Source: a virus. Taken from it: 21,203 bases of DNA. Of this stretch, positions 15,047 through 17,253 are shown one piece after another. Where the stretch lies: positions 1-21,203 of IMG/VR virus record IMGVR_UViG_3300036900_000095, one strand, 5' to 3'. A program made the translations under genes and the position numbers. Under the pieces are notes generated by a model. It searched no databases. It had not been told where the DNA came from and was given only the letters and a program-made list of their open reading frames with translations. Positions within the stretch are counted from its first letter, which is position 1. Each line of letters opens with the position of its first letter.

Positions 15047-15075
15047 AATATAGGGCCAACGGCCCACAGGGTCAA
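15047..15075 (-). promoter_or_regulatory. promoter of serine recombinase with operator in the spacer
   Basis: On the minus strand TTGACC (15075-15070) and TATATT (15052-15047) are separated by exactly 17 bases. The palindrome GGGCCAACGGCCCA (15053-15066) fills the spacer up to the -10 box. A bound protein would block RNA polymerase. The -35 is 5/6 and the -10 is 5/6 of the sigma70 consensus. Confidence 0.7.
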
Positions 15076-15087
15076 TAGGTAGGGGGG

Positions 15088-15116
15088 TTGACGAGGCTGG
15101 GCCAATGGCCCATACT
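15088..15116 (+). promoter_or_regulatory. promoter of the 121-aa gene with operator in the spacer
   Basis: On the plus strand TTGACG (15088-15093), a 17-base spacer and CATACT (15111-15116) form a sigma70-like promoter (5/6 and 4/6). The perfect palindrome TGGGCCAATGGCCCA occupies 15098-15112, overlapping the first two bases of the -10 box. It is divergent from the recombinase promoter, and both carry the same operator. Confidence 0.7.
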
Positions 15117-15141
15117 GGCTCATCAACAACAGGAGAAGACC

Positions 15142-15507
15142 ATGCGTAAGAACGACCTCAGAATACAGATCAACCTGGCGCTCGCCAGTCTCGATCGCGG
15201 CTGGAAGGGCGCCACCAAAGGCCTGACCGTCGCGCAGATGAAAGACATGCTCCAGGATCTGCGCCGCGAGCAGATCGCCCGCGGCATCATCAAGCCGCGC
15301 GCCGGCGAGCGGGACGTCGTCCTCGAGGTGTCCGATCACGGCACCGTCGTCGGGTTCTCCCCGAAGAGCGAGGCCGCCGACGAGCTGCTGCACTCACTCG
15401 GCGCCAGCGCGTACCAGTGGATGGGCAACACGCTCTACATGGATCACCGGGTCGCCCAGGACTTCATCGCCCAGGTGTCCGAGGAGGGCGGCAAGTTCGT
15501 CGGATAG
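15142..15507 (+). CDS. hypothetical early protein, 121 aa
   Basis: The product is not recognised. It starts at 15142 after AGGAG (15131-15135); an upstream ATG at 15088 is rejected because it lies inside the promoter. The N-terminus (about residues 8-45) is basic and helical (LTVAQMKDMLQDLRREQIARG), and the C-terminal half is mixed. It is the only plus-strand gene between the convergent recombinase and integrase units, has its own operator-controlled promoter and ends in a strong terminator. That isolated arrangement is typical of a lysogeny or early-control gene, so it may be a regulator, but this is inference. Confidence 0.65.
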   Translation: MRKNDLRIQINLALASLDRGWKGATKGLTVAQMKDMLQDLRREQIARGIIKPRAGERDVVLEVSDHGTVVGFSPKSEAADELLHSLGASAYQWMGNTLYMDHRVAQDFIAQVSEEGGKFVG

Positions 15508-15530
15508 ATCGAGCTCCAGGCCCAACGACA

Positions 15531-15558
15531 AACCCCCGCCTCTCGGCGGGGGTTTTTG
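15531..15558 (+). terminator. strong intrinsic terminator
   Basis: A 10-bp GC-rich stem AACCCCCGCC (15531-15540) with GGCGGGGGTT (15545-15554) around a TCTC loop, followed by TTT at 15555-15557, ends the 121-aa gene transcript 24 bases after its stop codon. Confidence 0.9.
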
Positions 15559-15585
15559 TTTGTGCGAACAAGCTGTGAACTCAAC

Positions 15586-15718
15586 TGAGAAACCGATTGA
15601 GAAACTTTGAGAAACCGGGTGAGAAACCGTTGGTACTGCTACAAAAACACTAATGCAGCAATTTTGTATATTTGTAATTGGATCAACGGTTTCTCAGTCC
15701 TGGTTTCTCAGTTTCTCA
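15586..15718. other. inverted array of 9-mer TGAGAAACC around an AT-rich core (attP-like)
   Basis: Left arm: four direct copies of TGAGAAACC or TGAGAAACT at 15586-15594, 15598-15606, 15608-15616 and 15620-15628. Right arm, inverted: GGTTTCTCA at 15688-15696 and 15702-15710 and AGTTTCTCA at 15710-15718. The innermost copies extend to a perfect 12-bp inverted repeat, TGAGAAACCGTT (15620-15631) and AACGGTTTCTCA (15685-15696), bracketing a 53-base AT-rich core with short A and T tracts. It lies between the terminator of the 121-aa gene and the terminator of the integrase. Arm-type integrase sites around a core is the plan of phage attP sites; an origin of replication or initiator-binding site is an alternative. 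No tRNA-like core was recognised. Confidence 0.6.
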
Positions 15719-15779
15719 GTCATGTGACCGCATGTCGTTCCTGCTGCGGTCCAATTCGTTCGCGTCCGTTCTCAAACAA

Positions 15780-15804
15780 AAACCCCGCCGGGCTGGCGGG
15801 GTTT
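15780..15804 (-). terminator. intrinsic terminator of the integrase gene
   Basis: A 10-bp stem AAACCCCGCC (15780-15789) with GGCGGGGTTT (15795-15804) around a 5-base loop lies 8 bases downstream of the integrase stop on the minus strand. It is followed in that direction by TTTGTTTG, giving a T-rich tail. Confidence 0.8.
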
Positions 15805-15811
15805 GGTCTTC

Positions 15812-16957
15812 TTATTTCACCCGGCGGATGCCGGCAGCCTTGCGTTTGTCCGCCTTGTCCTTCGCCTCGATCGCGTCGTTCCATTTGCCCACCACCATCT
15901 CGTTCATGGCAACGCGGTTGGCGTGTTGCGAGTAATAGTCGGCCATCTCGTTTGAGCGGTGACCGGTGACCGTCTTCACGCCGGCGCTGCCGACCATGAG
16001 CTGCGCGACCTCCGAGGCAGCGTTCTTGCGCAGGCTGTGCATCGAGATCGAGCGCTGGCCGCGCTTGGCCAATCCGATCTTGATCAGGTGGTTGCGGATC
16101 GACTGGCTCAGGCACATCGCGTCTGGCCAGGGCTTGCCCAGCGAGCTGGTCAGGATGGTCTCGCCGGTTCGCGGCGCAGCCAGGAGAGCGTCGAGCAGCG
16201 GCTTGGGGCAAAGGTGATAATTCGGCAGCGGGTCGGGGAGGGCGTCGGTCTTCTCTGGCGTGACCCAGATGCCTTTGCCGTCGAATTGCGACCACAACAT
16301 CTTCACGCAGTCGCCGCCGCGCTGGGCTCCGAAATGCAGCAGCAGCTTGGCGAGCTGGAGATGCTCGGGCGCGGTCTGCATGAACAGCGTCTGCTCGGCA
16401 TCGGTCCACGGGCGCGCCGGGCGCTTCGCCTTGTAGCGCAGCGTTGCCTCCTCGACCGGGTTGGCCATGCCCTTGATGCGAAACTCGGGATGCTTTTTGC
16501 AAGCGCGCCAAATATTGGACAGCAAGAAGATCTGCCGGTCAGCAGCGGAGGCGCAAAACTCTTTCGTGATCTTCTCGCTGTAGATGTCGATGGCATCGCT
16601 GTCGAGATCAGCGAGGGCGGTGCCGCCGAGGTATAAGCCGATGATGTCGAGCGGCTGCGCGTAGATGCGCTTGGTGCTGTCCTTCAGCTCGAGATACTCC
16701 AGCGATATCTTGTACTGTGCGATGCCCTTGCCGATCGTCCCGTCACCGTTGACCGGACGAACCACCGGCGCCTTTGCCTTCGGCCGCGGTTGGCGTTTGA
16801 TCGACTTGAGGCACTCTGCGTACGCGCGCTTGAACTCGATTGAAGTTTCATCGGAAGGTAGGGGCGCTAGCCTGCCGTCGACCGGCGAGCGAAAATAAAC
16901 GTAGGGCTTACCTTTTGCGATTTTTCGGTTCAGGTAATCCAATGGCTTCTTTGACAT
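15812..16957 (-). CDS. tyrosine integrase (phage-type site-specific recombinase)
   Basis: The 381-aa product catalyses phage integration by strand exchange at att sites. Catalytic-type residues can be seen: Arg213 in GAQRGGD, His307 and Arg310 in HSLRKNAA, His333 in TGHRSNEM, and the Tyr nucleophile at 341 or 342 in ADYYSQHANR. An N-terminal part of about 180 residues holds the DNA-binding and core-binding region. It starts at 16957 inside the last part of the HTH gene (50-base overlap), so the two are translated together. A basic tail (KRKAAGIRRVK) ends the protein. Arm and core sites probably lie at 15586-15718, immediately past its terminator. Confidence 0.9.
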   Translation of the reverse strand: MSKKPLDYLNRKIAKGKPYVYFRSPVDGRLAPLPSDETSIEFKRAYAECLKSIKRQPRPKAKAPVVRPVNGDGTIGKGIAQYKISLEYLELKDSTKRIYAQPLDIIGLYLGGTALADLDSDAIDIYSEKITKEFCASAADRQIFLLSNIWRACKKHPEFRIKGMANPVEEATLRYKAKRPARPWTDAEQTLFMQTAPEHLQLAKLLLHFGAQRGGDCVKMLWSQFDGKGIWVTPEKTDALPDPLPNYHLCPKPLLDALLAAPRTGETILTSSLGKPWPDAMCLSQSIRNHLIKIGLAKRGQRSISMHSLRKNAASEVAQLMVGSAGVKTVTGHRSNEMADYYSQHANRVAMNEMVVGKWNDAIEAKDKADKRKAAGIRRVK

Positions 16958-17210
16958 TCGGTCTCTCTCTCAGAATGCGATGCACAGTGTTCTGAGCATC
17001 ATTGTCCTTCAGGTTGTCGAAGGCCGCATCGAGATCGAAACGATCCCACACCGTAACGCCGCGCGGGCGGATTGGCTGTGGCATCGTCCCCTCCTCAACC
17101 ATGCGCAGGAATGTCGTCTCAGACAAACCAACGTAGGCTGCAGCCCTCTCAGACCGAAGACCGCGCGGTGGATAAGCAAGGCGATCCTGTAGCTTTTCCG
17201 CCGGCACCAT
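16908..17210 (-). CDS. excisionase-like HTH protein
   Basis: The 100-aa product has a winged-helix/AlpA-like HTH at residues about 18-66 (GLRSERAAAYVGLSETTFLRMVEEG, then a PRGVTVWDRFDLDAAF wing-like part). Such proteins set integration direction (Xis) or activate int. GGAGG (17220-17216) precedes the ATG at 17210. It overlaps the integrase start by 50 bases, so they form one unit under the promoter at 17225-17253. A true Xis function is inferred from position and HTH type only. Confidence 0.7.
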   Translation of the reverse strand: MVPAEKLQDRLAYPPRGLRSERAAAYVGLSETTFLRMVEEGTMPQPIRPRGVTVWDRFDLDAAFDNLKDNDAQNTVHRILRERPNVKEAIGLPEPKNRKR

Positions 17211-17224
17211 CTAGGCCTCCACAC

Positions 17225-17253
17225 AGGTTACAGGGCCATTGGCCCAGGGTCAA
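17225..17253 (-). promoter_or_regulatory. promoter/operator of the HTH-integrase unit
   Basis: On the minus strand TTGACC (17253-17248) and TAACCT (17230-17225, 3/6 match) are spaced 17 bases. The palindrome GGGCCATTGGCCCA (17233-17246) fills the spacer. The surrounding 40 bases (GGGTCAAT and a G run) resemble the recombinase promoter region at 15053-15090, so the two regulatory segments look related by duplication. Confidence 0.65.

Follow-up and report, generated by a model that had tools for sequence, protein, structure and literature searches.

In the published Aca families an inverted repeat is located within the core promoter, and the members which have been tested act as repressors (PMC9410906). 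Mutagenesis of Aca10 showed that DNA binding depends most critically on R44, a residue of the loop joining helices 3 and 4; the R44Y mutant did not bind DNA (PMC9410881). The locus described here resembles these systems in several respects: a small XRE-like HTH protein is usually encoded downstream of one or a few small genes without assigned function, the operator is an inverted repeat inside the core promoter of the operon that encodes this protein, and the operators of its family show the same TAGG-N9-CCTA frame as the Aca1 site TTAGGCACAATGTGCCTAA. It differs in the inner operator bases, which are GGGCC here, in the coverage of several promoters including those of a recombinase and an integrase, and in the occurrence of this HTH family mostly in metagenomic phage contigs.

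The window, i.e. the whole stretch of DNA analysed, is an entire virus record of 21.2 kb; the contig is a 21-kb fragment. We estimate a probability of about 0.82 that the palindromes found in it are operators of a 76-aa HTH protein encoded at 14149-14379 on the minus strand. A dimer of this protein would occupy GGGCC-N3-GGCCC inside the -35/-10 spacer and exclude RNA polymerase, and would thereby repress its own operon (serine recombinase-HTH), a divergent 121-aa gene and an operon of an Xis-like gene and an integrase. Following the logic of Aca, the three promoters P1-P3 would fire at once on entry into a repressor-free cell and shut down as the HTH protein accumulates; it is because of this analogy that we regard them as putative early promoters. 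The sequence tests do not distinguish repression from activation.

Palindromes and promoters of the window

The window contains three 13-bp GGGCC-N3-GGCCC palindromes, each within the spacer of a sigma70-type promoter with exactly 17 bp between -35 and -10. Promoter P1 (15047-15075, minus strand) consists of the -35 box TTGACC at 15070-15075, the spacer CTGTGGGCCGTTGGCCC and the -10 box TATATT at 15047-15052, with operator O1 at 15053-15065 (GGGCCAACGGCCC, also written as GGGCCGTTGGCCC). It drives a serine recombinase with a resolvase N-terminal domain (14376-15023, minus strand; Pfam PF00239, E=4e-26; PHROG DNA invertase), the first gene of the operon, which overlaps the start of the HTH gene by 4 nt (ATGA). 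Promoter P2 (15088-15116, plus strand) has the -35 box TTGACG at 15088-15093, the spacer AGGCTGGGCCAATGGCC, the -10 box CATACT at 15111-15116 and operator O2, GGGCCAATGGCCC, at 15099-15111. It drives the 121-aa gene (15142-15507, plus strand), whose product has an 89% identical copy in the nearest relative, G001, and gave no match in Pfam, PHROG, PADLOC or NCBIfam. Promoter P3 (17225-17253, minus strand) comprises TTGACC at 17248-17253, the spacer CTGGGCCAATGGCCCTG and TAACCT at 17225-17230, with operator O3 at 17233-17245 (GGGCCATTGGCCC, also written as GGGCCAATGGCCC). It drives a 100-aa HTH_17/excisionase-like protein (16908-17210, minus strand; PHROG 25900, E=3e-18; phrog_66 excisionase) followed by a tyrosine integrase (15812-16957, minus strand; PHROG 1 integrase, E=6e-24; Pfam Phage_integrase, E=2e-4). 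P2 and P3 have weak -10 boxes. P1 and P2 are divergent, and their operator starts are 46 bp apart in the window and 45-49 bp apart in its relatives.

A chance origin of the palindromes was rejected: first-order Markov shuffles of the window yielded 0.057 expected occurrences of GGGCCN3GGCCC against the three observed, and approximately 0 for the palindrome combined with TTGAC. A MerR-type spacer activator was likewise rejected as a candidate, since it requires a long spacer of 19-20 bp while all three spacers measure 17 bp. The sequence-only reading had described three sigma70-like promoters with a palindromic operator in a 17-bp spacer, which these counts bear out; the positions it gave for the palindromes hold, two end coordinates being off by one base. 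All three palindromes are intergenic. It had also counted a fourth, weaker copy into the regulon. This copy, GGGCCAATGGTCC at 21126-21138 on the minus strand, is present with one arm mismatch; no -35/-10 boxes were found around it, a counterpart upstream of the same operon is absent from G001, and it appears at the three-mismatch level, where 0.94 matches are expected by chance. Its membership in the regulon and its role as a functional site are thus not supported.

Adjacent to it, positions 21139-21203 at the right end of the record contain direct repeats around GTGATCA/TGATCATCACA, which lie upstream of the early operon; possibly they are operators of another repressor, or an origin. Direct and inverted TGAGAAACC repeats are clustered at 15580-15720, between the 121-aa gene and the integrase, and could be integrase arm sites.

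A motif linked to phages and to one HTH family

When viral contigs were scanned for TTGAC-N3-7-GGGCCANTGGCCC, 90 viral stretches were found. The gap after TTGAC is not evenly spread: of 95 sites, 50 have a gap of 5 nt and 30 a gap of 6 nt. The palindrome runs directly into a TATA(A/T)T-like -10 box, as in TTGACA-NNNTAGGGCCAWTGGCCC-TATATT. In most phages the exact operator occurs in a single copy, usually ahead of an operon of unrelated small genes which includes the repressor gene. The motif is a recurrent element of phages, linked both to phages and to promoters. A slightly stricter form gave 13 matches in 84,980 bacterial species genomes (257 Gb), and the TTGAC motif was present in three of 397 genomes of one order; the motif is therefore not a host regulon. 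That many unrelated phages share it might suggest that a host transcription factor uses the sites; in view of these counts, and of a linked phage gene family which covaries with the motif, we consider this extremely unlikely. Among the open papers of the library searched that contain the operator strings, none deals with phage or bacterial regulation.

A profile seeded with the 76-aa HTH of the window and two motif-linked relatives revealed one small HTH family (MTPxEYRxALxxLGLSQxxAAxLLGVDxRTxRRWxxGERxVPGP) in most motif loci. At 40 of 57 distinct promoter-like sites with enough flank, a family member is encoded in the same orientation no more than 2 kb downstream; seven more sites have one nearby and ten have none within 2 kb. 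As controls, the HTH was found at two of 16 sites without a -10 box or with an odd gap, and at 9% of random positions in the same loci. Commonly the promoter-operator is followed by one to three small genes and then by the HTH gene.

The association was also found from the protein side. HTH relatives fetched by protein alone were reduced to 121 nonredundant loci, a set that partly overlaps the motif loci, and GGGCC-N3-GGCCC was the most enriched of 13,312 palindrome classes (arm 5, spacer 0-12, 1.2 kb searched) upstream of the HTH, with 35 of 121 loci upstream against 3 of 121 downstream. A palindromic spacer at the corresponding fixed position, no particular base being required, was present in 26 of the 95 HTH loci without the scanned motif; antisense and downstream controls gave 1, 2 and 0. 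Operator variants change both arms together (GGTCC/GGACC, GGCCC/GGGCC, GGGCA/TGCCC, GGACA/TGTCC). Family-wide, 144 operator promoters were found by scanning spacers of 17 and 18 bp.

One residue of the HTH covaries with one base pair of the operator. In 62 HTH-operator pairs, the operator's inner base pair can be predicted from the alignment column with the R of 'G[ED]R' (39/3/2/18, Fisher p=1.2e-10): R pairs with CC..GG operators, and I, A, S, L and Q with CA..TG and others. This column is the best of all (z=12.2; next column 5.4), and the relation holds inside two subclades (p=3.6e-5 and 2.2e-6), these counts being stratified by subclade and taken without tree correction. Five pairs are exceptions, two of which (L151 and L207) retain one CC half-site, and operator position 3 showed no clear column among the HTH residues (best z 3.5). 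The protein of the window fits the rule with Arg47 (codon 14239-14241), a putative operator-reading residue, and a CC operator. Its recognition helix comprises residues 36-44, and an AlphaFold model with a mean pLDDT of 82 places Arg47 in the loop that connects helices 3 and 4; in the printed profile alignment it aligns with R44 of Aca10. One amino acid thus predicts one operator base pair, which is directly testable, and a regulator-operator code becomes readable from sequence for a phage group that is large and apparently undescribed.

Two loci, L223 and L262, encode an HTH with RKW instead of RRW and have the operator arms GGCCC/GGGCC; RKW is no clean rule, since L093 and L103 carry it together with GGGCC operators.

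Operators in relatives and likeness to known regulators

The divergent operator pair is kept together with the serine recombinase and the HTH in all four relatives of the window (G001, G016, G024 and G034), and a counterpart of P3/O3 precedes the homologous HTH_17 gene in G001 and G016. The sequence-only reading had postulated a shared operator served by a phage-encoded control protein and had named four candidates for it. The first of these claims gained support, and of the candidates only the HTH at 14149 stood; it was singled out by co-occurrence, reciprocal search, covariation and presence in relatives, as it is the only candidate regulator of the window kept in all four operator-keeping relatives. 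Neither of the HTH_17 proteins, encoded at 16908 and 20688, was detected in G024 or G034, nor was the 121-aa protein in G016 or G024, although these relatives keep the operators. That one of these three proteins binds the operators is thus very unlikely, the more so as they do not belong to the family associated with the motif, even though the gene at 16908 itself lies under P3.

In the clade of the window, the operator additionally covers recombinase and integrase promoters, beyond the autorepression-like site of most phages. The integrases of the window and G001, of G024 and of G034 share no similarity detectable by blastp, and in all of these phages alike the integrase gene is either preceded by an operator promoter or part of the gene run of P2. 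The proposed repressor would therefore be placed over recombinase and integrase genes also in phages whose integrase has been exchanged for a dissimilar one, which would link an early-gene shut-off of the Aca type to the control of site-specific recombination.

Several operators over integrase and recombinase genes could also indicate that the HTH is a lysogeny (immunity) repressor and the operator set a lysis-lysogeny switch, and 29 proteins of G001 and G034, mainly from the early region, included no S24/CI-like repressor. We regard this as possible but rather doubtful. The early recombination operon has no conserved operator, most phages carry one exact site, usually ahead of the operon of the HTH itself, other HTH-like proteins are present in G034, and the contig is only a fragment. 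The 76-aa protein consists of the HTH only, with no S24 peptidase or dimer domain as in CI/LexA-like repressors. The idea that one protein switches the whole temperate decision, put forward from the sequence alone, goes beyond these findings; the single site of most phages resembles Aca autorepression.

In G001, a second HTH has three operator-like copies directly upstream. Operator-like palindromes at 44625-44637 of G001 and 32683-32695 of G016 abut the Shine-Dalgarno sequence of a small gene and have no clear -35/-10 boxes; in G001 this gene is located two genes ahead of a terminase-like gene.

A profile search of solved structures placed Aca10 (7xi5, E=2e-6) and Aca3 (9vt3, E=6e-6) close to the HTH of the window, with HigA2 also among the nearest sequences. 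The Foldseek matches, none of them at E<=0.001, included the HigA2-DNA complex (8a0x, the top match with E=0.02), Aca1-DNA, Aca10 and Aca2. Similarity in fold and, weakly, in profile to HigA2 and MqsA would fit the antitoxin half of an autoregulating toxin-antitoxin pair like HigBA or MqsRA. This is very unlikely: the HTH differs from both in being an HTH domain alone and in having no recurrent toxin partner, since its 229 partner genes fall in 181 clusters, counts which are approximate because they come from a simple custom gene finder, and no recurrent toxin family was adjacent. Of 15 HTH members, 14 also gave weak matches to the VC1465/XafT Xer recombination activation factor family (NF040522), the best with 3.8e-8; the member listed in full scored 28.4 bits against a curated cut-off of 70.

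The XRE-like fold, with the DNA-reading Arg found as R44 in Aca10 and R39 in Aca2, suggests that the HTH most likely works like an Aca repressor, nearest to Aca10 and Aca3. The name Aca does not apply to it, since no neighbouring acr gene was found: the matches of 77 operon proteins (Pfam, PADLOC and the 25 of 44 NCBIfam families listed) contained no acr family, a result bounded by whichever acr models these collections include.

Leader inverted repeats and genes of the operons

Within 60 nt after the -10 box, 43 of 120 operator promoters have a GGGC-N4-8-GCCC inverted repeat, compared with 1.0 expected by shuffling; the leaders of the window lack it. Pairing of its outer arms is better in cis than after exchange of arms between loci (one of 200 swaps was as good), and the folding z-scores of the leaders are modest (mean -0.7). 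Between -10 and the Shine-Dalgarno sequence it takes the form GGGC-AATNNN-GCCC, e.g. in L030 (6582, plus strand), L069 (8681, plus strand) and L080 (3829, minus strand), and it is a candidate RNA-level control element. Aca2, reportedly described in 2024 as exerting control via RNA as well as DNA, offers a parallel, as the leader hairpin resembles its RNA arm.

Few of the 77 operon representatives match Pfam; those that do include an ArdC anti-restriction domain, a zincin-like metallopeptidase, RadC, ERF, resolvase, integrase and pentapeptide repeats, and PADLOC adds a methyltransferase. The promoter marks operons of small genes without assigned function, which are good candidates for anti-defence functions. 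One can tentatively speculate that control operates at two levels, by the spacer operator on DNA and by a leader hairpin GGGC-AAUNNN-GCCC beside the ribosome-binding site, and that the approximately 180 governed families are largely unrecognised anti-defence genes; taken together, we consider these two suggestions rather improbable.

Members of the HTH family also occur in Bradyrhizobium. The phage ppBeUSDA76-2, a prophage of Bradyrhizobium elkanii USDA 76, encodes one that is 49% identical to the HTH of the window, with an imperfect operator-like site upstream. On two plasmids (L309 and L310), the neighbours of a family member are a Fic gene, which is divergent, and an abortive-infection gene, and in L309 two palindromes (GGGCCAATGGTCC and GGTCCAACGGACC) directly precede the HTH start codon.
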